Part shown: positions 7,983 to 38,595 of the stretch, in pieces
Layout: every line of letters starts with the position of its first letter
How positions within the stretch are numbered: the stretch's first letter is position 1
Source: Clostridia bacterium
Lineage (GTDB): Bacteria; Bacillota; Clostridia; Oscillospirales; Acutalibacteraceae
Direction of reading: 5' to 3'
Assembly (NCBI GenBank): GCA_017481575.1
Contig: JAFUPA010000011.1
Span: 1 to 43,415, forward strand
DNA: 43,415 nt
Program-made: the position numbers and the translations under genes
Notes under the pieces: generated by a model
Told to the model about the DNA's origin: nothing
Databases searched by the model: none
What the model saw: the letters and a program-made list of their open reading frames with translations, nothing else

Positions 7983-8017
7983 AAAAATTTCTCGTCATTT
8001 TCGACGGGAATTTTTTG
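7983..8017 (+). terminator. Rho-independent terminator
   Basis: TTCTCGTC and GACGGGAA form an 8-bp stem with one G-T pair (7989-8010), extended by flanking A/T pairs and followed by TTTTTT. It closes the small accessory cluster before the promoter of the surface locus. Confidence 0.85.
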
Positions 8018-8035: not shown

Positions 8036-8064
8036 TTGACTATTGTTGCAAGTTGTGTTAAAGT
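8036..8064 (+). promoter_or_regulatory. Candidate promoter of the AWF/SipW surface locus
   Basis: -35 TTGACT (8036-8041), 17-bp spacer, -10 TAAAGT (8059-8064). This leaves a long leader of about 125 bases before the first start codon, containing the hairpin at 8104-8128. The -10 box is imperfect. A TATAAT further on (near 8150) lacks a well-spaced -35 box. Confidence 0.5.
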
Positions 8065-8103
8065 AATACATGTATATTAGTATCTTTATGTGGATTATTG
8101 CGC

Positions 8104-8128
8104 CCAAAAACAGGAAAACCGTTTTTGG
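8104..8128 (+). promoter_or_regulatory. Leader hairpin ahead of the EAL gene
   Basis: CCAAAAAC (8104-8111) pairs with GTTTTTGG (8121-8128), and GG/CC inside the loop add two more pairs around a bulged A. There is no U-tract after it, so it is not a terminator. It could stabilise the long operon message or be a protein site. It does not match the c-di-GMP riboswitch consensus. Confidence 0.4.
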
Positions 8129-8196
8129 AAAGCAAAAATCGTATACATTTATAATATATATAAATAAACAACCGATAACGTTGGAGTGTGTCGACT

Positions 8197-8937
8197 ATGG
8201 CTGAAAACAAAAAGAATACCGGTTCAAGAATCAGAGCTATTGAGCTTTTCTACAGACCTGTTTTTGACATTCATCTTAATATGGCGATTGATTACGAAAC
8301 TTCAATGCGTATCAACGATAAAGTTCAGGGCGTTATCCCTGAAAAAGTTTTTCTGCCTGTTGCAGAAAAATCGAGCCAGGTTGTTCAGCTCAACCTGTGG
8401 GCGGTTGAAGAGGCTTGTGAGGCTATCAAGCGTTGCGCTGAGCGTGAGGTTGATATGAACAGCGTTATCCTCTGGGTTTCTGTTAAAACTCTTACAAAAA
8501 AGAATTTTGTTACCCAGGTTAAAAAGATTGTTGACAAGTACGACGTTTCTCCCGAAAGCTTTTGCTTTAACATAACCGAGAGCATTCTTGAAGCTGTTAA
8601 GGATAAGGTTATTGAAAACATCAACGCACTCCGTGAGCTTGGCTTCAGGATTTCAATTGATGACCTCGGTCTTGAATACACATCACTTTCAAACCTTTCA
8701 CATTACGATGTTGATTATATCGGAATTCACAAGACGATGATTGAAGACATCCTTGTCAGCGAAAAGGTACAGAATACGGTACAGGGTATCATAGATTTCT
8801 GTAAAAAGATTGACACACAGGTAATCGTTGACGGAATTGAATCAAAGGAAGTTTTTGATTTAATCAACAAGATGGGTGCAGACCGTTTCAGCGGTCCGTA
8901 CTTCGGAGAATTTGTTAAAGATAAGCAGATAAATTAA
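8197..8937 (+). CDS. Degenerate EAL-domain protein (possible c-di-GMP receptor)
   Basis: A 246-residue single-domain protein of the EAL phosphodiesterase fold with no GGDEF or sensor domain. Aligned by eye, YRPVFDIHLNMAIDYETSMR corresponds to the start of EAL domains: the EAL triplet reads E34-T-S. NITES (125-129) and DDLG (155-158) are kept, but the catalytic lysine position is Gly176 (YIGIHK) and the EGVE motif reads DGIE (212-215). Loss of the lysine suggests weak or no hydrolysis and a role as c-di-GMP binder or scaffold; this is inference. The start is the ATG at 8197 with GGAG ten bases upstream; a GTG at 8188 is too close to that site. It leads the surface locus, so it may link c-di-GMP to its assembly. 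Confidence 0.85.
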   Translation: MAENKKNTGSRIRAIELFYRPVFDIHLNMAIDYETSMRINDKVQGVIPEKVFLPVAEKSSQVVQLNLWAVEEACEAIKRCAEREVDMNSVILWVSVKTLTKKNFVTQVKKIVDKYDVSPESFCFNITESILEAVKDKVIENINALRELGFRISIDDLGLEYTSLSNLSHYDVDYIGIHKTMIEDILVSEKVQNTVQGIIDFCKKIDTQVIVDGIESKEVFDLINKMGADRFSGPYFGEFVKDKQIN

Positions 8938-8952
8938 AGGAGGCGGATTAGC

Positions 8953-9777
8953 TTGGCGAAGAAGAAAAAGGATCAGGCACCTGCAGACGCAGCCTTGCAG
9001 GAAAACGGCCAGATGGATCGCTACGGTGTTAAAACCGAATCTAAAAAAGTTAAGAAAAGAGAAGCTTTAATCCGAATCCTTGCAATTATTCTCGTTTTAC
9101 TTTTGCTTTTCCTTTCCATAATGTTCGCTTGCTCGTCATACGTCAATAAAGCAGGTGACTTTACGGTTACAATGGATAAAGATGCGTTTAACATCGGTAT
9201 CACTCTTTCGGAAACAGCGGATTTTAAAAATCCCACACGTTTCCTCACCGGTGAAAAATGCGAAAACATGGGCGACTGTACATATGAGTGGCTTCCCGAT
9301 GATATCGACAGCATTGACGGCTCTCACAACCGTTCAAACGGTAAGGAGTTTCTTGCTTACACGTTCTATGTTAAGAACGCAGGTGAGGTTGATGTCAAGT
9401 ACAATGCAAAGATTCTTATTGATTCTGTTGCACTCGGTGCTGACGAAGCTATGCGTGTAATGGTCTTCCGTAACGGCGAGCCTACAATTTACGCCAAACC
9501 GCAAAAAGGCACAACGGATAAGCTCGAAGAAAACAGAGATGACAGGGGCTTTGTCCGCTACACCGTTGACAAGAACTTTGTTTCCAACACAAAGGTAATG
9601 GAAGAAAACTTTGAATTCTTCCCGGTCAACGAGGTTGACAAGTATACGGTTGTAGTATGGCTCGAAGGATGGGATCCCGAATGTGTTGATAAAATTCTGG
9701 ATGGCGAAATCAAGATGTCGATGAGTTTTTGGTGCGACCCCTTGGATGATGGTGACGGATCATCCGAGCTGCAGTAA
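8953..9777 (+). CDS. Bitopic membrane protein with AWF-subunit-like external domain
   Basis: A 274-residue protein with a lysine-rich cytoplasmic tail (1-38), one membrane helix (about 40-62, ALIRILAIILVLLLLFLSIMFA) and an external domain of about 205 residues. Near the end VVVWLEGWDPECVD matches the C-terminal motif of the two large AWF proteins downstream (YIWMEGQDAACTD, YLWMEGNDVDCAN). AMRVMVFRNGE likewise resembles their AMRIGFVNCG and AMRVALVNCG. It lacks the AWF cleavage region, so it is probably an anchored relative of the subunits, such as a base or initiator (inference). The TTG start at 8953 is set by AAAGGAGGCGG, and the gene begins 15 bases after the EAL stop. Two external cysteine pairs may form disulfides. 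Confidence 0.75.
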   Translation: MAKKKKDQAPADAALQENGQMDRYGVKTESKKVKKREALIRILAIILVLLLLFLSIMFACSSYVNKAGDFTVTMDKDAFNIGITLSETADFKNPTRFLTGEKCENMGDCTYEWLPDDIDSIDGSHNRSNGKEFLAYTFYVKNAGEVDVKYNAKILIDSVALGADEAMRVMVFRNGEPTIYAKPQKGTTDKLEENRDDRGFVRYTVDKNFVSNTKVMEENFEFFPVNEVDKYTVVVWLEGWDPECVDKILDGEIKMSMSFWCDPLDDGDGSSELQ

Positions 9778-9801
9778 AAATTTATCAGTCTCGGTTTAAT
9801 C

Positions 9802-9830
9802 TTCAGAATAAAGACACTTTGAGATATAAT
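9802..9830 (+). promoter_or_regulatory. Possible internal promoter before the first AWF subunit
   Basis: A perfect -10 TATAAT (9825-9830) has only a weak -35 (TTCAGA, 9802-9807) at 17-bp spacing. A separate start here would allow the subunits to be made in excess of the regulator and anchor. Confidence 0.3.
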
Positions 9831-9889
9831 TATGTAAGGGAATTTGAACTTCCGTGCATAAAATCTGAAAAGGAGGTAAGAAAAAGACA

Positions 9890-10858
9890 ATGTTCAAAAA
9901 GAATCAGAAAAATCGCGCATTCTTTGCTGCAATTGCGATGCTTCTTCTTTCTGCAATCGTTATCACTACTGCATCTTTTGCATGGTTTACTCTTGGTAGA
10001 AATGCAATGGCAAGCAACCTTGATCTTAAGGTTACAAAGCAGGGTGAAGGTATTCAGATTTCTGCTAATGCAACATCTTTTACGGATGAGCTTACTTTTG
10101 AAGATCTTAACGGTACATCAACCTCAGGCTTCCAGGCAGTTTCGGAAGATTTTAACTACTTCCCTGCTGAAATCAGCCCTGCATCTTCAGCTTTCTCCCG
10201 TAATAAATTGCCCGCATTCTTTGCAGGCGGCATTGACAAGGCTTCTGATACAATGGAAAGCTTTGCGTCTACTTCCGCTGATGGCTTGACCATTTACGGT
10301 AAGAGCGGCGCTGAAGTTCCCGGCGGCGGCAAGAGAGCCGGCTTCTACGCATTCGATGTATTTATCAAGTACACAGCAAGCGTTCCCGGCGGCACTGCAC
10401 AGGTTAAGGTCGGTCAGACAGCTATCACCGTTAAGGATGATACTTCAGACGGCACAACTGCTATTGCAGATGCAGTTCAGGCTATGCGTATCGGTTTTGT
10501 TAACTGCGGAACAGTTACTGAAGGTGCAACACCTCCCGCAGCTGACTCAGGTTCTGAGGCAGTCATTTTCGCTACCGATGAAGCCGCAAGAAACACCGCA
10601 CCTATCGCAAGTACAGGTGTCAGCGGTACTCTTGCTGACGGTACATACACTGTTCCCGCTTCAGCAGCAGGAGAACTCACAATTAAATCTGCATACGATT
10701 GTGCTGTAGAAACAGGTTCTGAGGATCAGACCTTAACTCTTCAGGACGGCGTTAATCAGATCAGAGTTTATATCTGGATGGAAGGTCAGGATGCAGCTTG
10801 CACAGACTCTCTCCAGAGCCAGCTTGTTTCATCAAGCCTTGTGTTCTCCATGGTATAA
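9890..10858 (+). CDS. AWF-type exported protein 1 (TasA/camelysin-like), candidate major fibre subunit
   Basis: A 322-residue exported protein. The N-terminus has basic residues, a hydrophobic stretch (AAIAMLLLSAIVITTASFAWF, split here by the conserved end SFAWF) and then a Ser/Thr/Gly/Ala-rich mature part. The [S/T]xFAWF end is typical of SipW-dependent exported proteins such as TasA, CalY and camelysin. The mature part ends IRVYIWMEGQDAACTDSLQSQ and a hydrophobic strand VFSMV. It shares AFDVFIK, AMRIGFVNCGT and the WMEGxDxxC motif with the next gene and is a clear paralogue. A strong AAGGAGG site lies upstream. The mature chain has two candidate disulfide cysteines near the end and one in NCG. 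Function as a fibre or matrix subunit is inference from family and context. Confidence 0.8.
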   Translation: MFKKNQKNRAFFAAIAMLLLSAIVITTASFAWFTLGRNAMASNLDLKVTKQGEGIQISANATSFTDELTFEDLNGTSTSGFQAVSEDFNYFPAEISPASSAFSRNKLPAFFAGGIDKASDTMESFASTSADGLTIYGKSGAEVPGGGKRAGFYAFDVFIKYTASVPGGTAQVKVGQTAITVKDDTSDGTTAIADAVQAMRIGFVNCGTVTEGATPPAADSGSEAVIFATDEAARNTAPIASTGVSGTLADGTYTVPASAAGELTIKSAYDCAVETGSEDQTLTLQDGVNQIRVYIWMEGQDAACTDSLQSQLVSSSLVFSMV

Positions 10859-11078
10859 TTACCAAATGCTTCTTACTTCTGATTTATGTTTCAGTTACTC
10901 CGGGACGTAATCGGTTGGACGGTAATATTCAGCTGAAATTTGGAGATGCAATTCTTGCAAACCGGGTTACCGGAAAAATCGGAATACTCCCGGTGGAATG
11001 GAACATGTTTCAGACCCCGCATTAGCGGCGAGTTAACGGTCGCTAAGGCAAAAAATCTTTATGGAGGTAAAGACAATA
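10859..11078 (+). other. 220-base untranslated spacer with inverted repeats
   Basis: Between the two large AWF genes there is no credible ORF. CCGGGA (near 10902) could pair with TCCCGG (near 10989), CCGGGTTACCGG is a local palindrome, and TTAGCG/CGCTAA near 11021-11056 forms a stem just before the next ribosome site (GGAGG, 11063-11067). The region may be a structured leader, a processing site or a 5' UTR controlling the second subunit. No U-tract, so no terminator is called. Confidence 0.4.
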
Positions 11079-12005
11079 ATGAAAAACACATTAAGAAGAC
11101 GTACGTTTATTTCAGCTATTGCCATGCTTCTTGTGTCAGCAATTGTTTTGACATCATCAACATTTGCATGGTTCTCAATGGCTAAAAGAGTCGAAGTTGA
11201 GTCAATGGAACTCAACATCACTTCACCTGACGGTGTCCAGATTTCAGCTAACGCTAACGCTTTCACAACAATGCTTACATTAGCTGACCTTAAGGGTGAG
11301 TCAACAGCTCGTTGGAATGCTTATGACGGAAACCAAAACAATTTCCCTGAGCTTCTTGTTCCCTCATCATCAAATATGTTTGTTGCGAACAGCTTGCCGA
11401 AGTTCTATTCAGGTTCAATTGATGATTCAGGCTACATAAACGCATCAGCAGTTCCGGCTGATGTAGGAAGTGGCTACATCGCATTTGATGTTTTTGTAAA
11501 AGTTGGTCAGGATATGCAGGTGTTCTGGAACGAGACATCAGTTACATGTGCTGATAACGAAGATGTTACATCAGCAATGCGTGTTGCTCTCGTAAACTGC
11601 GGTACAGTTGCTGCTAAGGCAGATGCTGCTGCTATCCAGGCTGTTAACCCTGCTAACGCTAACCAGAACCGTGTTGTTATGTATGAGCCCAACTCAACAA
11701 ACCACACTGATGCTTCAGGTTATGCAGACGGAGCTACAGTTCCCGATCTTTACTTGACATCTGCTTTCTCAAAGCGTACACCCACAGGTAACGGCAAGAA
11801 CATTATGCAGGAAGCTCAGTATGCAAGTGCTGCTCTCGGTACTCGTGCAACAGATTCAAATAGTTCTACTAACGCATACTTCAACGCAGTTGCAGGTATC
11901 AACCGTGTAAGAGTTTACCTTTGGATGGAAGGTAACGACGTTGACTGTGCTAACGACGTTGCAGGTGCAACAATCAACTTCAACCTTGTACTCACAATTG
12001 TATAA
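11079..12005 (+). CDS. AWF-type exported protein 2 (TasA/camelysin-like), candidate major fibre subunit
   Basis: A 308-residue paralogue of the preceding subunit gene: same N-terminal pattern (FISAIAMLLVSAIVLTSSTFAWF), GVQISANANAFTTMLTLADLKG, YIAFDVFVKVG, SAMRVALVNCGTV, and INRVRVYLWMEGNDVDC near the end with a final hydrophobic strand LVLTIV. The start is the ATG at 11079, since GGAGG lies 11 bases upstream and MKNTLRRR gives the basic signal-peptide start. The mature chain is rich in Ala, Asn, Thr and Ser and low in Lys, as expected of an extracellular polymer subunit. Codon use is very regular, consistent with high expression. A cluster of hairpins follows the stop and may reduce read-through or protect the mRNA end. 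Confidence 0.8.
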   Translation: MKNTLRRRTFISAIAMLLVSAIVLTSSTFAWFSMAKRVEVESMELNITSPDGVQISANANAFTTMLTLADLKGESTARWNAYDGNQNNFPELLVPSSSNMFVANSLPKFYSGSIDDSGYINASAVPADVGSGYIAFDVFVKVGQDMQVFWNETSVTCADNEDVTSAMRVALVNCGTVAAKADAAAIQAVNPANANQNRVVMYEPNSTNHTDASGYADGATVPDLYLTSAFSKRTPTGNGKNIMQEAQYASAALGTRATDSNSSTNAYFNAVAGINRVRVYLWMEGNDVDCANDVAGATINFNLVLTIV

Positions 12006-12028
12006 GATTAAGTTAATTTAAAACTTCC

Positions 12029-12122
12029 CCACAGGGCAGGAGCCCTGCCCTGTGGATTCCGTCACATTCAACGGGTGACGTTTACCCGTCACCCGATTAA
12101 ATCCAAAGCCGCCTTAAAGGCG
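12029..12122 (+). repeat. Three consecutive hairpins after the subunit genes
   Basis: Hairpin 1 is a perfect 12-bp stem CCACAGGGCAGG/CCTGCCCTGTGG with a 3-base loop (12029-12055). Hairpin 2 is CGGGTGACG/CGTCACCCG with a 6-base loop (12072-12095). Hairpin 3 is CGCCT/AGGCG (12110-12122). None has a U-run. They sit between the abundant-looking subunits and the first signal peptidase, where a partial terminator or 3' exonuclease block would set subunit-to-enzyme ratio. Confidence 0.7.
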
Positions 12123-12199
12123 ATTTGTGAGCATTGCTTTTGTTGCAGTGTTTGCGAATGACCTTTAAGTCAAATAAAACCAGGAGTGAGTGTAAAAAA

Positions 12200-12916
12200 A
12201 TGAAAAATAAAGGCAAAAAGATACTTGGAGTGGTATCCGATATCCTGCTTATTCTGATTTTGGTTATAGCAATCGTTATCACGGTTATGACCTTTACATC
12301 AAAAAATTCAGATACAGGTATCGGTAATGTGTTCGGATACACTCCGTTCTCAATTCAATCAGACTCAATGTCCCCGACCTTCAAGAGCGGTGACCTGATT
12401 ATTGCAAAAGAGGTTAAAAACGTAAACGACCTCAAGCCCGGTGACGTTATTACCTATTCAACGGTTCTCACCGACGAAAACGGCAGAAGCATCAGAGGCT
12501 TCAATACCCACCGTATCCTTGATATCGAGTACAATAAGGATAACACCATCCGTGCCTTTGTCACAAAGGGTGACGGTATCAACACAGAGGATAACACCCT
12601 CGTGCTTCCCGATGAGGTTATCGCAAAACAGGTAAACTCGGGTATGGATGAAAACGGCAACTATAAGGAAGGTCTTATGATTGCAAACTTCGGTATGGCA
12701 CTTAACTTCCTTCAGTCAAGAACAGGATTTATGATTTGTATCATCATTCCGCTTGCCCTCTTCTTCATCTGGCAGATTTACAAGCTCATTGCAATGTTTA
12801 TGGAAGCTAAAGCGGCTGATATCGACGAAGAAACCAAAAAGCGTGCAATTGAGGAGTATCTCGCCGAGCAGGCAGCAAAGCAGAAGGCTGAATCGGGCGA
12901 CGAACCCAAAGAATAA
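12200..12916 (+). CDS. Signal peptidase I, SipW/S26B type (peptidase 1)
   Basis: A 238-residue membrane protease of the Ser/His (ER/archaeal/SipW) branch of signal peptidase I. The nucleophile is Ser56 in SDSMSP and the general base His104 in NTHRI, with TKGDGIN as the GD box. His in place of the bacterial Lys separates it from LepB. Membrane helices lie at about 8-32 and 180-203, and a charged cytoplasmic tail follows (AKAADIDEETKKRAIEEYLAEQAAKQK). The start at 12200 is chosen because the mature family N-terminus begins MKNKGKK and AGGAG lies upstream; the longer reading from 12134 overlaps the hairpin region. It lies right after the two large AWF proteins and probably cleaves them. Confidence 0.93.
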   Translation: MKNKGKKILGVVSDILLILILVIAIVITVMTFTSKNSDTGIGNVFGYTPFSIQSDSMSPTFKSGDLIIAKEVKNVNDLKPGDVITYSTVLTDENGRSIRGFNTHRILDIEYNKDNTIRAFVTKGDGINTEDNTLVLPDEVIAKQVNSGMDENGNYKEGLMIANFGMALNFLQSRTGFMICIIIPLALFFIWQIYKLIAMFMEAKAADIDEETKKRAIEEYLAEQAAKQKAESGDEPKE

Positions 12917-12997
12917 TTTTTACACACATACATTCACTATACCTATTATATATAAGCCTTCGGCAGATAGTTATTAAGTTTAAAAGGGTGGCTGAAA

Positions 12998-14560
12998 ATG
13001 ACAGTAACAAAATTCATTGCAGAGTTCTTAAATCAGTTTTTCATAAAAGGTGTATGGGGAATTTTTAAAGGTATCGGCCTTGGCATTGCCAATATCTTCA
13101 ACATCCCCGAGTACATAGCAATCTTCAAGTCCTGGTCGGGTGATTTCACCGCAGTTGACTGGATTCTTGCAATTCTTGCAGTTGTTGCAACAGTTGCAGT
13201 TCTTGTAGCAGCAGTTCTTCTTGCTGTTGTGCTTATCAAAAAGTACATTCGTGTCCGCAAGACACTTGTTGACCAGGAAGAGCTCCTTAACGAGGTGGGC
13301 AACCTTAACCGTGAGATTATCAAGCTTTCAAACGAGAAAGAGAAAATCCTTGCTATGAAGGTTTCACAGCTCGGTCTCAAGCCCGGTGAGAGTGCTTATG
13401 TTGATAATCAGGACGAAACAGCAGAGGGCGAAGAGGGCGAGAAAAAGGCTGACGGTGAGGTTGACAAGACAGCCGACGACTACAGCCGTTTCTACAAGTG
13501 TACACAGGTTGACCTCGAGCTTGAAAATTATGTTGCTCCCGAGTATGACAACGAAATCACACTTCCTGAAATCTGTGATATGTTCCGCAACTTTGCTTGC
13601 TCAAGACTCGGTCTTTTCTACGAAATCAAGGTTATCCGCCTTTTCCTTTCAGCATTTGCATCAACACGTCTTATCATCCTTCAGGGTATTTCCGGTACAG
13701 GTAAAACGTCACTTGCTTACGCTTGGGGTAAGTTCTTGCAGAATGACGTAACAATCGCATCTGTTCAGCCGTCATGGCGTGACCGTACTGAAATCTTCGG
13801 TTACTTTAACGAATTTACAAAGCGCTTTAACGAAACAGAAGTTCTTAAAAAGATGTATGAAGCTACTTTCAAAGAGGACATCTTCATCACCGTTCTTGAC
13901 GAGATGAACATCGCCCGTGTTGAGTACTACTTCGCAGAGCTTCTTTCAATCCTCGAAATGCCGTCACGTGACGAGTGGGTTGTTTCACTTGTTCCGAGCG
14001 TATGGCCGACTGACCCGAAGCACGTTATCGACGGTAAGTTAAAGCTTCCCGAGAATATGTGGTATATCGGTACAATCAACAACGACGACTCAACATTTGC
14101 CGTTTCCGATAAGGTTTATGACCGTGCTATTCCGATTGACCTTAACAGTAAGGGTAAATTCTTCGAGGCACCGTATACAGAAAATCTTACACTCAGCTAC
14201 AAGCACCTTGAGGCAATGTTCAGAGATTGCCAGACAAAGTACAAGGTATCTGATGAAAACCTTAAGAAAATTGAAGAGCTTGACGACTATGTTATTGAAC
14301 ATTTCCGTCTTGCATTCGGTAACCGTATTGTTAAGCAGCTCAAGGAATTCGTTCCTGCTTATGTTGGTTGCGGCGGTACAGAAATCGACGGTATCGACTT
14401 CGTTCTTGCAAAGAAAGTTTTCCGTAAGTTCGAAAGCTTGAACCTTTCATTCATCCGTGACGAAATCGACGGTCTTGTTACTTACCTTAACAAGCACTTC
14501 GGTAAGGCTAACATGAACGAATGTAAAGAATACCTCCAGCTTCTCAAGAGACTTATGTAA
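12998..14560 (+). CDS. Membrane-anchored McrB-type AAA+ ATPase
   Basis: A 520-residue protein. Residues 1-50 are amphipathic, about 54-79 form a membrane helix, 87-120 a short coiled coil, 130-160 an acidic linker, and 175-520 an AAA+ module. Walker A is GISGTGKTS (about 229-237). Walker B is TVLDEMNIARVEYYFAELL (about 296-314), the signature of the McrB/AAA_5 group. GTINNDDSTFAVSDKVYDRA is the sensor 1/arginine-finger region. McrB proteins form NTP-driven hexamers that work with a DUF2357/McrC partner, and the next gene is such a partner. Here the ATPase is fixed to the membrane and surrounded by export genes, so DNA restriction is unlikely; a role in assembly, remodelling or extraction of membrane subunits is inferred. 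Confidence 0.88.
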   Translation: MTVTKFIAEFLNQFFIKGVWGIFKGIGLGIANIFNIPEYIAIFKSWSGDFTAVDWILAILAVVATVAVLVAAVLLAVVLIKKYIRVRKTLVDQEELLNEVGNLNREIIKLSNEKEKILAMKVSQLGLKPGESAYVDNQDETAEGEEGEKKADGEVDKTADDYSRFYKCTQVDLELENYVAPEYDNEITLPEICDMFRNFACSRLGLFYEIKVIRLFLSAFASTRLIILQGISGTGKTSLAYAWGKFLQNDVTIASVQPSWRDRTEIFGYFNEFTKRFNETEVLKKMYEATFKEDIFITVLDEMNIARVEYYFAELLSILEMPSRDEWVVSLVPSVWPTDPKHVIDGKLKLPENMWYIGTINNDDSTFAVSDKVYDRAIPIDLNSKGKFFEAPYTENLTLSYKHLEAMFRDCQTKYKVSDENLKKIEELDDYVIEHFRLAFGNRIVKQLKEFVPAYVGCGGTEIDGIDFVLAKKVFRKFESLNLSFIRDEIDGLVTYLNKHFGKANMNECKEYLQLLKRLM

Positions 14561-14599
14561 TTTAAGCAAACTATCTACTCTCAAAAGGGGACATAATCC

Positions 14600-16873: not shown

Positions 16874-16915
16874 TATTAAATTTACCGATTAACGGATTTT
16901 CGGAGGAAACCAAGA

Positions 16916-22900: not shown

Positions 22901-22966
22901 ACTATTGAGGACGAAACCGACGGTGCTTGGGGACTCAGAAGTCTCTGGACAGTAATCGGCAAATAA
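16916..22966 (+). CDS. Giant secreted GLUG-like beta-helix protein (2016 residues)
   Basis: Signal peptide (KVAVVLLSIVMLMTSTGIVSSLA) followed by a Ser/Thr linker (about 32-70). Four modules begin with a DGTxENPYxIxxAxDL-like header and a DIDLSG strand near residues 75, 507, 819 and 1418. Between headers there are dozens of GLUG-like turns (GGVVGxNxGxV, KNVKLVNVNVT, AAVLAGQVTGN), predicting a long right-handed beta-solenoid. The last 240 residues look Ig-like (VNVSVQLVNATSD...). No LPXTG, LysM, SLH or C-terminal membrane helix is seen, so attachment must be through other components. GLUG proteins are typical adhesins of Gram-positive gut bacteria. RBS is GGAGG 10 bases before the ATG. Its place inside the AWF/SipW locus suggests it is a component or passenger of the same surface structure. 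Confidence 0.88.
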   Translation: MQKRRFEKVAVVLLSIVMLMTSTGIVSSLAVNVSESSAASVSTSTTSSTASSVTREGGSITSSSVAQEGGAVVTDNGDGTKENPYKITTAEEFLAIGNKVNNTASADKYFVLANDIDLSGVTAKDFEGGSLVGTDKTLSATSANVFIVLDGNGYSLKGLNVEFTKGTEASVFGVLNSKSVVKNIKIDRPVIKSTSDEMANLALVATENKGTISAVEIAYPVITAKAAVNTAFVVAVNEGTVSDVAVKGTHTNISAATADSHTISSVGTVGAVAALNHGTVANVSAINVGMFIPEAEGAVVFGGVVGANSGSVLASVSTGNVMGGKASDVVGGVVGKAVNPVGGEEATSTLTNNYTLVAISKSVYGCAVIGSAGTAEMIKDCYWSSAVSGKDVMATDFGAGVNEISSRFIIIPEGKTASLSATDVKSTVFGKAAVELDGEITVKGDGVKAQSADGKAEITAETAGKVAYATYTAKLTLPANVGSSKASNVLKQYQKVYLLTVAKDAEGDGTVENPFVIKSSADLAMYNYVPSMNAVLGGDIETGATVPAIKGTFDGNGYTISASKPLVANIYGTLKNVNVIVTADISSAVLGNAIGANVSGVAVSMADGVKLNVQANNRGILFNRIGGQSVIDDCHAQGEILICADKATAIGGFAGLVNGKATVTNSGAVTSITLGEGFTAEKTAGFVGSITADDVTISNCYTDGESEFIADMPEKIKLENIVTGWSFDGGNVGFFTGNGGEFTATLPAIKTFADSAAEDYKVICDGEKLVSSVSVADGKLTLKVERAQGVVTVKALPVTVVNKKTGLSATINVSNGLEKDAEGRYIISTAYDLAYMSENIAELANASFIMTADVDMSVVDGFAPVGGAEVAFSGIFDGSGKTVKNLTIDGTAKVGLFGVLDSATVKNVKLVNVNVTSTGGYAAVLAGQVTGNTVISGVTVEGAKVESHDLYTGVIVGAIDSELAPSITDITLKNNSVNSDSNYVGALAGRVNGNATVSGITVEEFTVSGASYVAGAVGLAQGDVSLADITVSGATVSGVSEVSGIASGNGNAAIKNSAVKASKISTIAITSANTAGGVSAVFSSAIENVSVENTTISAGVAGGIVGKTNADSTLTIKNASVKACNINSSDANTVAAGILGVHNVKGNVAIEAVLVDENTVISGAAVSAGLVGDCSGADSVLEVTDAKTLATVNGSMTANAIASAGALGRIGVSAVNNVSLKAVKVGGSVSGAAAVGGIVGIVKDGEAYKGIRAIVSDASVFAQMNVADASSAGVIFGEVEGNVINPEYTVLAVKNVVLTSYYGVNAYPTDAFAGGYTDLNDGIVPSVDTLETDEETTVKLYGLPTVDGYVFDSEAGWSSESADRVQVVSSSEKEVVLKAERRAQVSVVAYYVLESDPQVRVPVCFNIVSNVYEPLNGSGTQDDPYLVNNAYDLEAVSQYADKGAYFALTEDIVLTDADYEFGGAFYNLGNGIVSIGSLDKPFNGVFTGLYNGKVHSITGLKMSGGTFGGLFAVADGATVTDLVINGAEISATANAGILAGRASNSTFKNITVTASTVEATGFGCAVGGVVGYAEATTVESVTLNSVTVGTTAEATDATVEVAGGVAGIFDGVVKAVTLSGAVVTADDIGAGAVAVANSGTYISDTSLYVQVKASVAGGVIGEAKDTMFLSISGASVSGKVEGNSISAGIIAKVSSADEAKSFDKLKNSLISDTVVTAKVAGNGINAVAIGEVDERIAVDKENTTTNVFENVYYSSYQNSLGAFGTQEFNAYQNSEYEIIDLSAVYYSANGEVSDSVKLSTEFTALADDSIVISGADGTYKSFTAGGKNFELKDITSSPEGLVTYDAQNDAVKLNEVPAKPAKLVFVYNGGLEIAIDIEADYADATENAVNVSVQLVNATSDTELSDKLVGVMLKSKVDGEAKASDFFATADSQPASIGAVEVADGEIYVSMHLSEGCTFSVNALDENSNELLTEDAGNEGVLVTAGEAKSITLTVTIEDETDGAWGLRSLWTVIGK

Positions 22967-22993
22967 AATTTTAAAGAAAGGGGCGGTGTTACA

Positions 22994-23626
22994 ATGTTGA
23001 AAAAGTTTCAGTTTTACAAAAACATAATATTGGTTGTGGCATCTGCCCTTACTCTTGTAGCAGTTACCTTTGCGTGGTTCAGCACTACTTACAACAATTC
23101 GCTCGATTACATACAGGCAGAAATCGGCGGCGACATTGTAAACGTTGAGTTTTACCAGGCGGACGAAAACGAAGATTATCTTCCGCTGGAGGGTAACATC
23201 GAGCTTACGGATTTTGTTCCGGGCAGCTACAACAAATATAAAATGATTGTTACCACAAAAACAGCAGACCCCCTTAATATGAACTTCGGCATTTCGGGTC
23301 TTCCCGAGGATATGAACGAGGATCTTAAGGCTTCTGTCTGTATCAAGTACAGTCTTATGTCTGCCTCAAAGCAGACCGCCGCAGACGGTACGGTTTCTTA
23401 TGTTGACGGCACTCTCATTTCGGAATCAAACGGCTATGTTCCGCTTTCCGAATTAACAGACGGTGCTATTTTCAGCGGAATTTCGCTCGAGAATTATCAG
23501 TCAACCTCGGCGGACGATTTTGTAATTTATTACGAAATCGGACTTTCGGAAGACAGCCCGTCAACAATTGAGGGTCTTTCCTCTTCTCTTGGCGATGTTA
23601 AAATCAGCGCACAGCGTATAGGATAA
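22994..23626 (+). CDS. AWF-type exported protein 3
   Basis: A 210-residue exported protein with signal sequence NIILVVASALTLVAVTFAWFS, the family AWF end. The mature part (about 185 residues) is acidic and beta-rich (IVNVEFYQADENEDYLPLEG; YNKYKMIVTTKTADPLNMNFGISG; VIYYEIGLSEDS). It shows the TasA/camelysin-like pattern of a jelly-roll domain after the signal, but not the WMEGxDxxC motif of the two large subunits, so it is a minor or different subunit type. It starts 27 bases after the giant gene with an AAAGGGGCGG site. Its stop is followed after one base by the ATG of a signal peptidase, suggesting a dedicated pair. Confidence 0.75.
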   Translation: MLKKFQFYKNIILVVASALTLVAVTFAWFSTTYNNSLDYIQAEIGGDIVNVEFYQADENEDYLPLEGNIELTDFVPGSYNKYKMIVTTKTADPLNMNFGISGLPEDMNEDLKASVCIKYSLMSASKQTAADGTVSYVDGTLISESNGYVPLSELTDGAIFSGISLENYQSTSADDFVIYYEIGLSEDSPSTIEGLSSSLGDVKISAQRIG

Positions 23627-23627
23627 A

Positions 23628-24230
23628 ATGAAAAAGACTAAAAAGATTTTCAGCCGAATTATGTCGGTGATCTCAATTTTAATTTTCCTTTTCGGTCTTG
23701 TGGTTTTCGTTTCCGTTCTCAATGCTTCTGCAGGCAAGGTGCCGAGCGTTTTCGGTTTCAGCGTTTTGCAGGTAAGTTCGGGCAGTATGGAACCCGAACT
23801 GATGACAGGAAGCGTTGTTGTCGTGAAAGAAACGGATGTCTACACACTCAAGGTTGGCGACATCATCAGCTTTTACTCGACGGATAAATCCATTGAGGGC
23901 AAGGTTAACACCCACCGAATTGAAAAAATAGAGTACAGTATGGGTACGGCACGAAGCCCGATTTTTACAACCAAGGGCGACGCTAACCGGAATGTTGACA
24001 CCGAAAAGGTAAGGTCGGCAAACGTTATCGGCAAGGTTGTTTACGACCTTGGAACGGTCAGCGGCTCGGTTATCAGCGTTTTTCAGAACCCGAATGTTAT
24101 TTTCTTTGTAATTGTTCTTCCGCTGATTTTTATTACTTTCGGCGAAGCGGTCAATCTTGCAACGCTGATTGCAAAAAGTAAGTACGATAAAGAGGAAGAT
24201 GAAGATGCAAACGCAGAAGAAAAAATTTAG
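23628..24230 (+). CDS. Signal peptidase I, SipW/S26B type (peptidase 2)
   Basis: A 200-residue Ser/His signal peptidase. N-terminal helix at about 10-31, nucleophile Ser53 in SSGSMEPELM, His96 in NTHRIEKIEY, GD box TKGDANRNVD, C-terminal membrane helix at about 152-175 (VIFFVIVLPLIFITFGEAV). SGSMEP is the classic SipW box. It is coupled to AWF protein 3 upstream (one base between stop and start) and overlaps the next peptidase gene by 26 bases. Two adjacent and clearly different peptidases suggest distinct substrate choice, not recent duplication. Confidence 0.93.
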   Translation: MKKTKKIFSRIMSVISILIFLFGLVVFVSVLNASAGKVPSVFGFSVLQVSSGSMEPELMTGSVVVVKETDVYTLKVGDIISFYSTDKSIEGKVNTHRIEKIEYSMGTARSPIFTTKGDANRNVDTEKVRSANVIGKVVYDLGTVSGSVISVFQNPNVIFFVIVLPLIFITFGEAVNLATLIAKSKYDKEEDEDANAEEKI

Positions 24231-24711
24231 CATTCTGTTAACCTCTTTAGTCATTTTTATCGCTGTTGTAGCGGTCGGAGTTGTGTACATTCCGTCAGTT
24301 ATGGGGCTTGACGCTTATTCAATTGAAACGGGAAGTATGGCAACAACAATCCCCGAGGGCAGTATGGTCTATGTCCGCCCTTATGTAAATTTTGAGGATT
24401 ACGAGCTTTACGATGTTGTCACCTTTACCGACCCCGTGACAGAGAAAAGCTTTACTCACAGAATTATTGAAATAAATTCGCTTGATCAAACCTTTAAAAC
24501 AAAGGGCGATGCTAACACAGAGCCCGACCTTGAACCAACACCGTTCAGTATGGCTGTCGGCAAGGTTGAGTTTTCAATCCCGCTTCTCGGTTATGCGGCA
24601 ACTTTTCTTAAAAACACCGTCGTCAAGATTGCGATAGCAGTTATCTACATCGCATGGGCGGCTATCGAGATAGAACTTTATTTAACAGAAAGGAAGAAGA
24701 GATATGACTAA
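24205..24711 (+). CDS. Signal peptidase I, SipW/S26B type (peptidase 3)
   Basis: A 168-residue Ser/His signal peptidase with Ser44 in ETGSMATTI, His85 in FTHRIIEI, GD box TKGDANTEPD, an N-terminal helix (about 8-29) and a C-terminal helix (about 140-160). I chose the ATG at 24205 because AGAGG lies nine bases upstream; an ATG at 24199 is also possible, while a TTG at 24169 is deep inside the preceding gene. The start lies inside the end of peptidase 2 in another frame, and the gene overlaps the following AWF gene by 8 bases, so the whole stretch is translationally coupled. Confidence 0.92.
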   Translation: MQTQKKKFSILLTSLVIFIAVVAVGVVYIPSVMGLDAYSIETGSMATTIPEGSMVYVRPYVNFEDYELYDVVTFTDPVTEKSFTHRIIEINSLDQTFKTKGDANTEPDLEPTPFSMAVGKVEFSIPLLGYAATFLKNTVVKIAIAVIYIAWAAIEIELYLTERKKRYD

Positions 24712-25354
24712 AAGATTGATATTGTTTGTAGCTTCCTTGGCTGTTATTCTGGGTCTTATGACCTCTGGCAGTTCCTTTGCGTGGTTTGCTTCTTCAACAC
24801 AGAAGAGCCAGAGCATCTCGGTTTCTCTTGTAAACAGCATCCACACAGCACATCTTGCAGATTTGCAGGCACCTGCAAACACCATTATCGTTCAGGGCGA
24901 CAACCTTGTTAACCTTGACGGTAAGTCTGCAAGCCTTCAGCTTGAAAATCAGTCAACAACCGAAACACAGCTTCGTATTTCCATTGAATACACAAGCTAC
25001 CGTTCGGGCAAGGCAGAGCAGGTAATCTACTCTGCAAGCGAAGAGGATGACATCATTGTCGAATTCGCTTCAAGTGCCTGGGCAAAGAATGTTAATGTTG
25101 CGGGCGTGACTTATTTCTATTATATGGGCGGCAGTTATCCTGCTGACACCATTACAAACATCGATGAAGTTCCTGCAATTTCACCCGATGTCAGCCGAAT
25201 TCCCGCAATTTCAAAAATTGCTTACAAGGACGACGTTTCCTACGCTTATTCGGGACAGAAGATAAACGTCAAGGTACGTTTCGAATCAAAGCAGGCGGAG
25301 AATGTCACTTGGTCGGCTATTGATTCTTATGAAGTTTCGGGCTTGGGTGAATAA
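24704..25354 (+). CDS. AWF-type exported protein 4
   Basis: A 216-residue exported protein with signal sequence LILFVASLAVILGLMTSGSSFAWFASS. The mature part begins QKSQSISVSLVNSI and continues as beta-rich sequence (KSASLQLENQSTTETQLRISIEYTSY; KINVKVRFESKQAENVTW) resembling a jelly-roll or TasA-like subunit. No cysteines in the mature chain, unlike the two large subunits. It overlaps peptidase 3 by eight bases and is followed after three bases by the GTG start of peptidase 4. It is therefore bracketed by two peptidases; which one cleaves it cannot be told from sequence. Confidence 0.73.
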   Translation: MTKRLILFVASLAVILGLMTSGSSFAWFASSTQKSQSISVSLVNSIHTAHLADLQAPANTIIVQGDNLVNLDGKSASLQLENQSTTETQLRISIEYTSYRSGKAEQVIYSASEEDDIIVEFASSAWAKNVNVAGVTYFYYMGGSYPADTITNIDEVPAISPDVSRIPAISKIAYKDDVSYAYSGQKINVKVRFESKQAENVTWSAIDSYEVSGLGE

Positions 25355-25357
25355 GCC

Positions 25358-25861
25358 GTGAAAATCAGAAATGTTTTGTTCAACATTCTGGCCATTGTAA
25401 CCGTGCTGGCTGTCGGCTTTGTCGGCTTCAATCTTTTGTCGGGCGCCAAGGGCTATGCTGTTACGAGTGACAGTATGAAAGACACGCTGAACACGGGCGA
25501 TGTGGTTTTTGTAAAATCAGTAACATTTGACGAGCTGCAGGTCGGTGATGTTATAACCGTAGCTTCGTCGGGAGGCGAAAGATTTTTCACACACAGAATT
25601 GTTGAAATAAATAAAACTGACAGAACAGTTACAACCCGTGGCGATGCAAATGGCGCAGACGACCCGATGCCGACCGAAGAGGAAAGAATAGTCGGCAGGA
25701 TGTGGTACAGCGTTCCGCTTCTCGGATTTATCACGATTGGTTTTTCGTACGTTTCGCAGTCCGCAGGACTTCTGATTCTTGCCGCAGTTGCGGTTGTGTT
25801 CGTTGTTCTGAATTCTATACTTACAAAATCTAAAAAAAGGAGAGGTGAAAGCGATGAGTAA
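25358..25861 (+). CDS. Signal peptidase I, SipW/S26B type (peptidase 4)
   Basis: The shortest of the four at 167 residues: N-terminal helix about 6-27, Ser39 in TSDSMKDTL, His79 in FTHRIVEI, GD box TRGDANGADDP, C-terminal helix about 135-157, and a basic tail KSKKRRGESDE. All catalytic positions are present. The start is a GTG at 25358, three bases after the preceding stop, with TGGGTGA upstream. The last eight bases overlap the start of the next AWF gene (ATGAGTAA), a tight translational coupling. Confidence 0.92.
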   Translation: MKIRNVLFNILAIVTVLAVGFVGFNLLSGAKGYAVTSDSMKDTLNTGDVVFVKSVTFDELQVGDVITVASSGGERFFTHRIVEINKTDRTVTTRGDANGADDPMPTEEERIVGRMWYSVPLLGFITIGFSYVSQSAGLLILAAVAVVFVVLNSILTKSKKRRGESDE

Positions 25862-26486
25862 ATTTAAAAGATTTTCTGCCGCAGTAATGGCACTCACTTT
25901 GGTGCTTTGTGTCGGATATTTTTCAGTTATGTCGCCCACCTCTGCCTGGTTTTATAACAGCGGTGTAATCGACAGCGGAAACAGCTTCGTTTTCGGCGAC
26001 CTGTCGGTGGACACCTCATTTACTTCAACCGAAAAGCAGGTTTTTGATGCCGCAACAAAGTTTGCAGACCCCGACGAGGTTTTGTTTGACGAAGCTATCA
26101 AGGTCAATGAAATTCTTGTTTACAACTCGGGAACAATTCCTGCAAGGGTTTATGCCGACGTTGTCAACACGGGTACAGACAAGGGTCTTCGTTGGTTTGT
26201 GTATGACGACACAATGCTCGTTGACGGCAGTGTTAAAAAGACAATTGAATCCGTTTTGCCCGAGATGACTGACGAGGCGCTTTATGCTTACGATAAAGGC
26301 GAGGACGGCAACAGCGGACACTATATTCTCCTCAACCCGGGTGAGATTACAACAGTTAAAATCGCAACGTGGATTGAGTACGATTATGTTGAAAATGAGC
26401 TTAAAAACGGCGAAGCTCTCGACGGATACGAGGTCGAAATGTCATTGATTGCCACACAGGACGTTGACGGCGCACTTGAAAGATAA
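25854..26486 (+). CDS. AWF-type exported protein 5
   Basis: A 210-residue exported protein with a signal sequence ending SVMSPTSAWFYNSG; the phenylalanine before AWF is replaced by serine. The mature part has FGDLSVDTSF, VNEILVYNSGTIPARVYADVV (a TasA/camelysin-like strand in which a neutral N-x-G-T segment is followed by a V-rich strand) and GEITTVKIATWIEYDY. The NSGxIPA[RY]V pattern is close to that of known SipW substrates. Start is the ATG at 25854 with AAGGAGAGG upstream; a GTG at 25845 overlaps that site. It lies directly behind peptidase 4, overlapping it by eight bases. Confidence 0.78.
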   Translation: MSKFKRFSAAVMALTLVLCVGYFSVMSPTSAWFYNSGVIDSGNSFVFGDLSVDTSFTSTEKQVFDAATKFADPDEVLFDEAIKVNEILVYNSGTIPARVYADVVNTGTDKGLRWFVYDDTMLVDGSVKKTIESVLPEMTDEALYAYDKGEDGNSGHYILLNPGEITTVKIATWIEYDYVENELKNGEALDGYEVEMSLIATQDVDGALER

Positions 26487-26504
26487 AAAAGCGAGGTGAC
26501 AAGG

Positions 26505-27119
26505 ATGTTGCATAAACTTAACAAAAGAGCAGTTGTTATAATCGTTGCAGTTGTTGCGATTGTGGCAGTTGTCGGCAGTTCGTTGGCATGGTTTGCAACA
26601 CGCAGCTCCTTGTTCCAGCAGTTAACTCTCAACTCCTTTGATGTCGGTGCAGAGGTTTATTTTGTTGACGGCAACTCAAAGGTGAGTGCAGAGGATTACA
26701 CAGACGAAAACGGACTTTATGTTCTGAGTCTTAACGAGGCAGATGTTAACTACATAGGCAACCTGCGTGCAGGTGTAACGCTTGACGGCGGCTCGGCTTG
26801 TGTGCGTGTAACAATGAACCACCAGTGGACTTCCGCAGACGGCGAAGTTCTCCAGCGCAGTGTGGCTGTTCCGTACGAGTTTGGCGAGCTCTGGTTTGAT
26901 AACCGCAACACGGACTACAGCGTTTACTATGCCGGCGAGGATATGTCGGGTAAGGCTACATTTGAAGCTGCCGATTTTATAACAGGCTTCTCGGAGGCTG
27001 ATTTTGACACGGCAGACCTTGCGGACGGCACACAGGTAAAGGTGCTCATTCAGGCAGATGCGGTTCAGGTTAACCGTTATCCGCAGTTGTGGAACATTGA
27101 AAAACTCCCGTGGAAATAA
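26505..27119 (+). CDS. AWF-type exported protein 6
   Basis: A 204-residue exported protein: signal sequence AVVIIVAVVAIVAVVGSSLAWFATRSS, then a mature beta-rich part (FDVGAEVYFVDGNSKVSAEDY; GGSACVRVTMNHQWTSADG; GTQVKVLIQADAVQ). It has a single cysteine and a Trp-rich end (PQLWNIEKLPWK). No WMEGxDxxC motif. The ATG at 26505 is preceded by GAGGTGACAAGG; a GTG at 26496 falls inside that site. It starts 18 bases after AWF protein 5, so the two are probably made together and processed by peptidase 4. Confidence 0.73.
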   Translation: MLHKLNKRAVVIIVAVVAIVAVVGSSLAWFATRSSLFQQLTLNSFDVGAEVYFVDGNSKVSAEDYTDENGLYVLSLNEADVNYIGNLRAGVTLDGGSACVRVTMNHQWTSADGEVLQRSVAVPYEFGELWFDNRNTDYSVYYAGEDMSGKATFEAADFITGFSEADFDTADLADGTQVKVLIQADAVQVNRYPQLWNIEKLPWK

Positions 27120-27134
27120 TGGAAGTTGATTTTT

Positions 27135-28025
27135 ATGTCGAATAAGAAAAAGAAGCCTGCGGCAGGAAAATCTGTCGCAGGCAAAACTAATTCGGGGCAA
27201 AAAAATCCCGAAAAAGCAAAAAAGCAGATAGAAAAACAAAAAGCCGAAGCCAAAAAACAGGCACAGCGTGTCCGTGAAGAAAGGCAGAAGGCTGAGCGTG
27301 AGCGTGCCCGAAAGAGCGAAGAGATACAAAAACGCCGTGAAAAGCAAAAGGCGAAGGAAGAGAAAACCGAGAAGAAAAATGAAGCAAAAGAAAAGGTTGC
27401 TTCGGGCTTTAAAAATGTTGCAGGCTCTTTTAAAGGTACGGCATCTGCATTCGGGCAGAAGATAAAGTATTACACAAGCAAGGAATTTCTCGGTTCGTTT
27501 CACTACACACGAATTTTAGTTTTTATCGTTTTGCCGCTTGTGCTCATCGGTGTCGGCATTTATATGTTTTTGCAAACACCGCTTGTCAATGTCCCGCCCG
27601 AAATCCGCAATCTTGAATTTAATGGCAGACTTGAAAGCTCACTCACGGCAAAAAGCTCCGCTTTCAGCACACAACAGCAGATGATGTTTATTGACTCTGT
27701 CGGTGCGCACGGCGGCGATGACTTTGAGTTTTATATCAATACCGAAATCACTCTTGACGACAACGGCGAAACCGATTCTCTGCGCTTCGGCAATCCGCAG
27801 TCGAACGACTGTGTTCTGGTCGCAACTGTTTATGACGGAGACGGCAGAGTGCTTTACCGCTCGCTCGGACTTGAAAGCGGCAGGGAAATAAACGAGGCAA
27901 AGTTTTTTGAAGAGGTTGAATACGGCACACACGAGGTCAAGGTTGCCGTGAACGCTTATGACAGCCGCACAAACGAAAAAATTGCTACAAAATATGCAGA
28001 GATAATACTCTCGGTTGGTGTATAA
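27135..28025 (+). CDS. Bitopic membrane protein with long basic/charged cytoplasmic coil
   Basis: A 296-residue protein. Residues 1-90 are lysine/glutamate/arginine-rich and helical (EKAKKQIEKQKAEAKKQAQRVREERQ in outline), about 122-147 form a membrane helix (ILVFIVLPLVLIGVGIYMF), and the rest is an external beta domain. The end (NPQSNDCVLVATVYDGDGRVLYRS through VNAYDSRTNE) matches the external domain of the next gene, so the two are a paralogous pair. Its charged cytoplasmic helix resembles in composition the long helix of the AAA+ partner, and a contact between them is a testable idea. ATG 27135 is preceded by GGAAG nine bases upstream. Confidence 0.7.
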   Translation: MSNKKKKPAAGKSVAGKTNSGQKNPEKAKKQIEKQKAEAKKQAQRVREERQKAERERARKSEEIQKRREKQKAKEEKTEKKNEAKEKVASGFKNVAGSFKGTASAFGQKIKYYTSKEFLGSFHYTRILVFIVLPLVLIGVGIYMFLQTPLVNVPPEIRNLEFNGRLESSLTAKSSAFSTQQQMMFIDSVGAHGGDDFEFYINTEITLDDNGETDSLRFGNPQSNDCVLVATVYDGDGRVLYRSLGLESGREINEAKFFEEVEYGTHEVKVAVNAYDSRTNEKIATKYAEIILSVGV

Positions 28026-28517
28026 ATGAAAGAGAAGAAAACGAAAATTAAAACGGCAATTATAATCGCAGTTTCGCTTGTTGCGATTGTCCTTTCCGTG
28101 CTTGTGCTGGTGCAGGTTGTGCCGAAGGTGCGGTTGAACCTTGCGGACGGCGGAACGGTTTGCGACGGAGTTTTGCCGAGTGTTGATGAAGCCTTGCACA
28201 TTACGGATGTGCCCGAGGGCGAAATCCGTTACCTTATAAATAAGCGTATGCACTTTGACAGCCCGTATTCCCTCGGTGATGTGATGCTCGAAAACCCCGA
28301 AAGCTGTGGCTACGACCTGCAGTTTGTGATTTACAACACACAGGGAGAGATGATTTACACCTCTCCGATGATTGCCCCGGGACAGTATCTCGAAAAAGAC
28401 AAGCTGACGGCTGTTCTGAAGCCGGGAGAATACAACTGCTCGTACTCCGCTCTTGCATACCGGAACGGCGAGCTTATGGGCGAGGTCAACGGCGTTGTGA
28501 ATGTTACGGTGAAATAG
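28026..28517 (+). CDS. Bitopic membrane protein, paralogue of the preceding gene
   Basis: A 163-residue protein: a short basic tail, a membrane helix (about 9-30) and an external domain with ENPESCGYDLQFVIYNTQGEMIYTSPMI, APGQYLEKDKLTAVLKPGEYNCSYSALAY. The pattern NPxS...IYxxxG...YxS...GxY...AY is shared with the preceding gene; similar domains accompany SipW/TasA-like loci in other gut Clostridia from memory. Two cysteines could pair. The ATG follows directly on the stop of the preceding gene. It is the last gene of the continuous surface locus. A role as anchor or terminal subunit is inference. Confidence 0.7.
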   Translation: MKEKKTKIKTAIIIAVSLVAIVLSVLVLVQVVPKVRLNLADGGTVCDGVLPSVDEALHITDVPEGEIRYLINKRMHFDSPYSLGDVMLENPESCGYDLQFVIYNTQGEMIYTSPMIAPGQYLEKDKLTAVLKPGEYNCSYSALAYRNGELMGEVNGVVNVTVK

Positions 28518-29183: not shown

Positions 29184-29217
29184 AAGGAACTCGAAATAAA
29201 TCGAGTTCCTTAATTTT
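29184..29217. terminator. Bidirectional rho-independent terminator
   Basis: AAGGAACTCGA and TCGAGTTCCTT form a perfect 11-bp stem with loop AATAAA (29184-29211). It is followed by a T-run on the plus strand and by TTTTTG on the minus strand, so it can end both the hypothetical gene and the convergent phosphotransacylase gene. Confidence 0.9.
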
Positions 29218-33700: not shown

Positions 33701-33733
33701 AAAGAGATTATAAAATGAAAGCAGGTGAGTAGT

Positions 33734-38583: not shown

Positions 38584-38595
38584 GGAGTGGATTTG

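Follow-up and report, generated by a model that had tools for sequence, protein, structure and literature searches.

In the TapA–SipW–TasA system of Bacillus subtilis, a SipW-type signal peptidase stands beside dedicated secreted fibre proteins. We analyzed a locus of 17 genes in a 43,415-nt stretch of DNA from a Clostridia bacterium (contig JAFUPA010000011.1; hereafter the window, part of a 2.1-Mb draft genome that is 73% complete), in which SipW-type peptidases and candidate secreted proteins, termed AWF proteins after their signal-peptide motif, are encoded together with a membrane-anchored McrB-like AAA+ protein and its DUF2357-containing partner. We know of no such AAA pair in the TapA–SipW–TasA system or in the TasA system of Bacillus cereus. 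The locus also differs from the Bacillus TasA systems by its four peptidases, its six AWF proteins and a protein, TMx, that lacks the AWF site. What it shares with the TasA/CalY/CapP system of B. cereus (PMC13082335) is a set of dedicated secreted proteins, predicted here to form fibres. The sipW-bsaABCRSD locus of Clostridium perfringens likewise provides a clostridial SipW-dependent secreted polymer, as we propose for the present locus, but it has one sipW gene and a two-component system, and the term 'AAA' is absent from the main text of that report (PMC7395162). The terms 'pili' and 'SipW' are absent from the main text of the Sas20 paper (PMC9112005).

On the side of the AAA pair, McrBC type IV restriction systems (Escherichia coli and T. 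gammatolerans; structures 6hz4 and 6ut5-7) have the AAA profile and the DUF2357 domain in common with the locus, whereas the pair studied here is membrane-anchored, comes with no DNA-binding domain or nuclease that we could find and lies in a surface-protein operon. An ordinary restriction system was considered and set aside, Pfam scans having found no nuclease. A further relative, CoCoPALM, is named in one paragraph by Bell, Makarova, Wolf and Koonin (eLife 2024; PMC11090510). As described there, it consists of an NxD-type McrB-like protein fused to an FtsB-like transmembrane (TM) segment and coiled coil, and of a McrC homologue with a coiled coil; its signal-peptidase neighbours are thought to serve pili, and it is placed among the relatives of Type IV restriction systems.

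An earlier note on this DNA knew of no described system with such a set of genes, a statement weakened by CoCoPALM, a described kind that has the pair. The window locus shares with CoCoPALM, as that paragraph presents it, the NxD McrB-like AAA protein, the TM segment, the coil-like DUF2357 partner and the signal-peptidase neighbours and, judged by these sequence features, is classed as a member of the CoCoPALM kind, its FtsB-like region giving weak matches only. It differs in that its peptidases are of the SipW type, AWF proteins lie beside them and no nuclease was found, and the main-text passages on CoCoPALM name no fibre subunits, TMx, pseudo-EAL protein or adhesins. What appears new relative to that account is a set of candidate SipW-type substrates, a putative founder subunit (TMx), a recurrent and apparently dead EAL protein, a predicted exchange of adhesins and the absence of a detected nuclease. 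Besides the eLife paper and its preprint, a literature search found by title no study on CoCoPALM or this locus type, and searches joining SipW with McrB, or using DUF2357/McrB terms, found no paper on this locus type.

Gene content and layout of the locus

The locus covers positions 8188–28517, preceded by upstream sequence at 8036–8187, and its 17 genes, all on the + strand, follow one another in the order listed here with the flanking hairpins.

7989..8010, + strand: terminator-like hairpin preceding the locus
8188..8937, + strand: degenerate EAL protein (pseudo-EAL); PF00563 at 1.5e-47, 5 of 8 catalytic positions changed
8953..9777, + strand: TMx, membrane-anchored homologue of AWF subunits without AWF site (hhalign, AWF profile, AlphaFold2 model)
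9890..10858, + strand: AWF1, SipW-type secreted protein (SFAWF); AWF profile 4.4e-48, motif
11061..12005, + strand: AWF2, SipW-type secreted protein (STFAWF); alignment, AWF profile, motif
12134..12916, + strand: SipW-type Ser/His signal peptidase 1; TIGR02228 73.7 bits, over cut-off; NF046067 2.2e-25, under cut-off
12998..14560, + strand: membrane-anchored McrB-like AAA+ protein (TM, coil-like stretch, AAA); McrB profile 4.5e-8, NNDD motif (NxD), one TM
14600..16873, + strand: McrC-like DUF2357 partner with a K/E/A/R-rich tail of ~410 amino acids (aa), no nuclease detected; DUF2357 4.9e-10 (first 335 aa)
16916..22966, + strand: GLUG-like putative solenoid of 2016 aa, ordinary signal peptide, WGLR tail; sequence, Pfam M26_N 2e-10, relatives' tails
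22994..23626, + strand: AWF3 (TFAWF); AWF profile 5.2e-5, N-terminal part only; motif
23628..24230, + strand: SipW-type peptidase 2; PF10502, TIGR02228 90.8 bits, Ser/His
24169..24711, + strand: SipW-type peptidase 3; PF10502, TIGR02228 1.9e-23, Ser/His
24704..25354, + strand: AWF4 (SSFAWF); motif, no AWF-profile match
25358..25861, + strand: SipW-type peptidase 4; PF10502, TIGR02228 90.4 bits, Ser/His
25845..26486, + strand: AWF5 (TSAWF); motif, no AWF-profile match
26496..27119, + strand: AWF6 (SSLAWF); motif, AWF profile only at E 0.336
27126..28025, + strand: bitopic protein with K-rich arm; one-TM protein of like size here in seven same-genus stretches
28026..28517, + strand: bitopic protein, last of the conserved block; small one-TM protein here in seven same-genus stretches
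29184..29211, both strands: two-way terminator-like hairpin following the locus

The 17 same-strand genes with small gaps or overlaps that the earlier note had described are all present, with intergenic distances of -62 to +202 nt, and its inventory of six AWF proteins, four Ser/His peptidases, three bitopic proteins and an anchored AAA+ protein with a long-helix partner was recovered by motif, S26 matches, TM segments and profiles.

Of 14 terminator-like sites on the + strand between 7900 and 27899, the one at 7989–8010 precedes the locus and the other 13 lie within coding sequence; between 26900 and 30100, the sole + strand site is the two-way hairpin at 29184–29211, past the locus end. Weak sites of this kind mean little, since 33 were found on both strands together, compared to 21.8 ± 4.9 in shuffled sequence. 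A promoter scan gave 28 matches against 23.3 ± 4.5 expected by chance, hence no clear excess. A single transcript for the 17 genes is plausible. A 206-aa gene without Pfam match (28557–29177) lies between the conserved block and the hairpin; no + strand gene of that size, compared by size and not by sequence, follows the block in L145, L147, L148, L150 and L151, the same-genus stretches that continue beyond it.

The McrB-like AAA+ protein and its DUF2357 partner

The window AAA protein matches AAA_5 under the curated cut-off, and its profile matches McrB chains at 4.5e-8. The motif NNDD is present in 17 of 17 core (A1) rows, aligned without gaps to distant relatives that mostly carry N-x-D-E; since NNDD alone also fits NxxD, the NxD reading rests on this alignment. 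The protein has one TM segment followed by what its sequence suggests is a coil, and comparison with FtsB-like families gave weak matches only (FtsL in 3 of 17 members, best 0.011; DivIC in 2 of 17, best 0.16). The window AAA is also matched, at 4e-36, by the PADLOC candidate PDC-M26A.

As to the partner, its N-terminal 335 aa match DUF2357 at 4.9e-10, over the curated cut-off, the whole protein having no Pfam match, and DUF2357 was found at E up to 1 in 35 of 35 members of the partner family (best 1.9e-14). In structural comparison of this N-domain, McrC occupied the top four rows; in Foldseek alone, T. gammatolerans McrC came first (E 0.069) and E. coli McrC fifteenth. The whole-partner profile run against PDB sequences matched coiled-coil and long-helix proteins, not McrC. 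The tail of ~410 aa is K/E/A/R-rich and proline-free, and coil families are matched by its relatives; its i,i+4 salt pairs show no excess (74 compared to 72.1 ± 6.6 in shuffles). No nuclease domain was detected by Pfam at E up to 0.01 across the 17 locus genes, and the 25 families listed, out of 148 matched by the partner family, include none either, though distant forms could escape these comparisons. By profile and structural comparison, the pair is McrB/McrC-like, of the NxD branch, and without a detected nuclease.

AWF proteins, TMx and SipW-type peptidases

The motif [S/T]x(0-2)AWF within the first 70 residues, combined with one hydrophobic stretch, was found in 6 of the 17 locus proteins, and the motif in 0 of the 22 other window genes examined. 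A search of the window genome with the AWF profile (E up to 1) gave five matches, every one of them in the locus: AWF1, AWF2, TMx and AWF3, with AWF6 matched weakly. AWF4 and AWF5 gave no match. No NCBIfam model matches the AWF proteins, and the AWF profile matched no PDB sequence. As for the peptidases, four of the six S26 matches of the genome lie in the locus, all four with Ser and His and above the TIGR02228 cut-off. Of the 72 members in the family alignment, 71 keep the Ser and 70 the His. Both peptidases scanned with the equivalog model of Bacillus SipW (NF046067) scored under its cut-off.

TMx is related to the AWF proteins (hhalign probability 99.1%; window TMx matched by the AWF profile at 1.3e-13) and has the C-terminal half and a WxEGxD..C motif in common with AWF2-type proteins, without the AWF site. 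Its AlphaFold2 model consists of a TM helix and a beta sandwich (pLDDT 86) and matches TasA, archaeal pili and FimA, as well as glycosidases at equal Z; in Foldseek, archaeal bundling pili came first (E 1.1e-3) with glycosidase sandwiches alongside. Against PDB sequences, the TMx profile gave only weak, unrelated-looking matches. The AWF-domain homology without an AWF site suggests that TMx is a subunit homologue retained in the membrane. TMx is a core part of the system.

Conservation of the locus

We collected 95 loci through the AAA protein alone, mostly from metagenome-assembled genomes or uncultured bacteria. Some are pieces of one genome: L125 and L132 come from one genome, as do L133 and L139, and L025 and L092, like L079 and L091, are contig pieces of one gene. 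The tally leaves out L153, L154 and L156 (duplicates of L026, L047 and L043), and L144–L148 and L150–L152 were not entered. The hidden Markov models used for the neighbour counts were built from loci of the same set, though those loci were found by their AAA protein.

The partner lies directly downstream of the AAA gene in 85 of 85 loci. A SipW-type peptidase is encoded upstream of it in 66 of 74; counted in both directions, one lies no farther than 5 kb away in 51 of 56. TMx and AWF genes are each found upstream in 56 of 64. Among the eight loci without an upstream peptidase, L125, L127 and L135 have one elsewhere, within 5 kb or on the locus map, and L138–L141 and L143 have no SipW-type peptidase within 5 kb. 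A second such peptidase occurs downstream within 10 kb in 29 of 66 loci; long solenoids often push the gene beyond the stretch.

Within the genus, stretches were available from 10 of the 17 other genomes, and gene order was identical over the extent covered: seven begin within a truncated TMx and reach the last gene, and the other three stop earlier, one of which (L154) has one upstream AWF gene versus two. The EAL–TMx arrangement upstream was also seen. The core AAA family is present in 15 of the 17 other genomes of the genus; one of that genus, 91% complete (G017), has neither AAA nor TMx. It was found in 21 of 391 class genomes (best matches of 362 bits or more, set apart from 18 further matches that do not exceed 121 bits) and, in a phylum sample of 398 genomes, only in G000 itself, 56 others having distant relatives at up to 131 bits.

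The earlier note had allowed that the AAA pair might prove absent from most loci. A search led by TMx speaks otherwise. TMx matches occur in 31 of 391 class genomes, 14 of them strong (127 bits and above) and 17 weak (no higher than 35 bits), and all 14 strong genomes carry the core AAA (Fisher 6.6e-21, kinship uncorrected). Among 60 relatives, the AAA was found in 19 of 20 strong-TMx genomes, the twentieth having its TMx on a 6.3-kb contig that stops after AWF1, before the AAA. Conversely, a strong TMx is missing from seven of the 21 genomes with the core AAA; four of these have the tandem form, in two the contig ends at the AAA, and the last is G269. The core is not always compact: G039, G055 and G222 each carry TMx and AAA on a single contig, separated by 14 to 37 kb. 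The TMx match of G222 (C12:36434-37186) contains ten in-frame stop codons, the fetched stretch giving open reading frames of 90 and 190 aa, and is probably a broken copy.

A tree was built from 86 AAA domains, with L116 as the root. In it, all 48 core and far members share one clade on a long stem (1.52), with a local support of only 0.65; the SipW-linked members form a clade inside it (0.94), and tandem AAA–partner–AAA forms without SipW lie at the base. These tandem AAA–DUF2357–AAA operons, which on the tree are a basal sister form of the putative motor, are seen in L138–L142, with no SipW-type peptidase or TMx within the stretch; those of L140–L142 lie beside two-TM proteins of 1327–1383 aa, the one in L140 with a transglutaminase core. 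Farther away, 38 distant AAA loci (nine from the class, 29 from the phylum sample) include 15 with a neighbour matching the DUF2357-domain profile and none with a SipW-type gene, within short flanks of ~1.5 kb only. Finally, a peptidase scoring over the TIGR02228 cut-off occurs in 100 class genomes, at least 82 of which are without the core AAA.

The view of a single SipW-type system with an AAA/DUF2357 pair thus held up, with gene order kept within the genus and a core kept across many families: as far as comparative sequence data go, the locus core is one conserved system. Synteny speaks against a chance cluster for the core.

The large surface protein and the EAL protein

The window giant (2016 aa) contains a Pfam M26_N region (2e-10), with GLUG-like repeats seen in its relatives, and we infer a solenoid fold. 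GLUG solenoids with a conserved WG(L/I) C-terminal tail, perhaps an assembly or anchoring signal, occur in the window genus and in L039, L043 and L085, the exception being L092 (WGE). In Ruminococcus-like loci (six of nine records bear that name), 8 of 9 large proteins scanned carry CBM26 starch-binding modules, the exception being L066. Among eight other large proteins, BspA LRR_5 was found in L036 and L040 and Flg_new repeats in L072; L086 has a match just under the cut-off, and four have no match. AWF, AWY or AWI/AWV-like ends are present on many lineage-specific large proteins. With the large protein behind the putative motor changing from lineage to lineage, the adhesin appears to be the variable part of the system, and the motor with its secretion genes the constant one. 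Of the two elements whose absence from most loci the earlier note had named as refuting, the AAA pair is kept, whereas the giant gene is lineage-specific (GLUG in the window genus and some neighbours, other large proteins elsewhere).

The EAL protein was correctly described as degenerate: it matches PF00563 at 1.5e-47 with 5 of 8 catalytic positions altered. Enzymatic control of cyclic di-GMP by this protein was considered and rejected, the active site being lost. A full EAL catalytic set was found in 1 of 37 locus-linked EAL proteins, many of which are close relatives. An upstream EAL gene was found in 31 of the 56 loci whose flank is long enough, and five far loci (L129, L130, L131, L157 and L158) have an EAL-domain gene of 752–796 aa downstream of the partner, the protein of L129 having GGDEF and EAL domains with the EAL set intact. 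The proposed cyclic di-GMP link is weak: the window EAL is degenerate and an upstream one is not general, although one of the five downstream genes, that of L129, encodes an intact set. A role of the pseudo-EAL as scaffold or binding partner is likelier than cyclic di-GMP breakdown, given residues that are inactive in 36 of 37 locus-linked proteins. In L048 (486-1892), the N-terminal half of the pseudo-EAL protein looks, by eye, HD-type.

A proposed mechanism and its rivals

We consider it somewhat probable that the locus is a CoCoPALM-type surface-fibre operon with motor help, and we infer fibre assembly and motor action along the following lines. AWF preproteins would be held in the membrane by their signal peptides until cleaved by the SipW peptidases; the freed subunits would polymerise outward, with TMx as base or nucleator, and the AWF proteins and the large solenoid would make up the fibre and its tip or adhesin. 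A McrB-like hexamer, stimulated by the DUF2357 protein as in McrBC, would sit on the cytoplasmic side and use the long tail of the partner to work on components held in the membrane, so that the site of assembly is organised or remodelled; this tail could also contact the K-rich arm of the bitopic protein. Lineages would swap the large protein to fit the surface bound, e.g. CBM26 for starch, and the degenerate EAL is probably a binding partner, not an enzyme. A broader proposal, which we advance tentatively and with rather less than even confidence, is that Gram-positive gut bacteria possess a sortase-free fibre system whose membrane-fixed engine is a former restriction-type McrBC machine that lost its nuclease. 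SipW peptidases would feed AWF proteins onto a membrane-anchored founder, and each lineage would exchange the adhesin for its own, one that binds starch in Ruminococcus-like loci and a solenoid in the window genus.

Alternatively, the locus could be a SipW/TasA-type matrix operon whose AAA pair performs quality control, clearing stalled AWF preproteins or peptidases and doing no assembly work. Some membrane-anchored AAA+ proteins do extract proteins, several peptidases and substrates would increase the need for clearance, and most SipW-type genomes of the class sample manage without the AAA pair; but protein extraction is not known to us for any McrB-type AAA with DUF2357, and we regard this explanation as somewhat unlikely. 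Chance proximity or a shared promoter bringing several unrelated units together seems very improbable: the larger 5' gaps (112, 202 and 128 nt), the differences between genera in the EAL, giant and 3' block and the occasional distance between TMx and AAA would fit it, but genus synteny, core adjacency and the reciprocal co-occurrence of TMx and AAA already disfavour it for the core.

The AAA pair could also be a membrane anti-phage device, kin to the CoCoNuTs, with the surface genes as bystanders or phage-blocking proteins. Across the class and phylum, its distant relatives resemble soluble McrB-like proteins, and a DUF2357-profile neighbour occurs in 15 of the 38 examined; the PDC-M26A match points the same way, and CoCoPALM is grouped with Type IV restriction relatives in the paragraph that names it (PMC11090510). 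Against this, the same paper states that another nuclease is always present in CoCoNuTs whose McrC nuclease is absent or inactive, whereas Pfam finds none in the 17 genes; the partner ends in a long charged tail; and order is kept through the genus, with the TMx–AWF–SipW core kept across families. We judge this explanation quite unlikely.

If the fibre-operon reading is true, a nucleotide-driven anti-phage machine would have been reused to build surface structures, a function would be assigned to a branch of McrBC relatives that has been named but, within the reach of our searches, not explored, and there would be hints as to the means by which uncultured bacteria of gut and rumen attach to starch or other surfaces. 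This reading is directly testable by way of the TMx anchor and the changing adhesins.

Other features of the window

A restriction-modification-like cassette (D12 adenine methyltransferase, PDDEXK_11 nuclease and N6/N4 methylase; 37519–39879) is separated from the locus by ~9 kb that contain other genes. The - strand carries a bacterial small signal recognition particle RNA (1–86) and a Gut-1 RNA (6165–6241; RF01706, 60.2 bits), and a CHAP-Big_2-fn3 protein, probably secreted, is encoded at 33725–35650.

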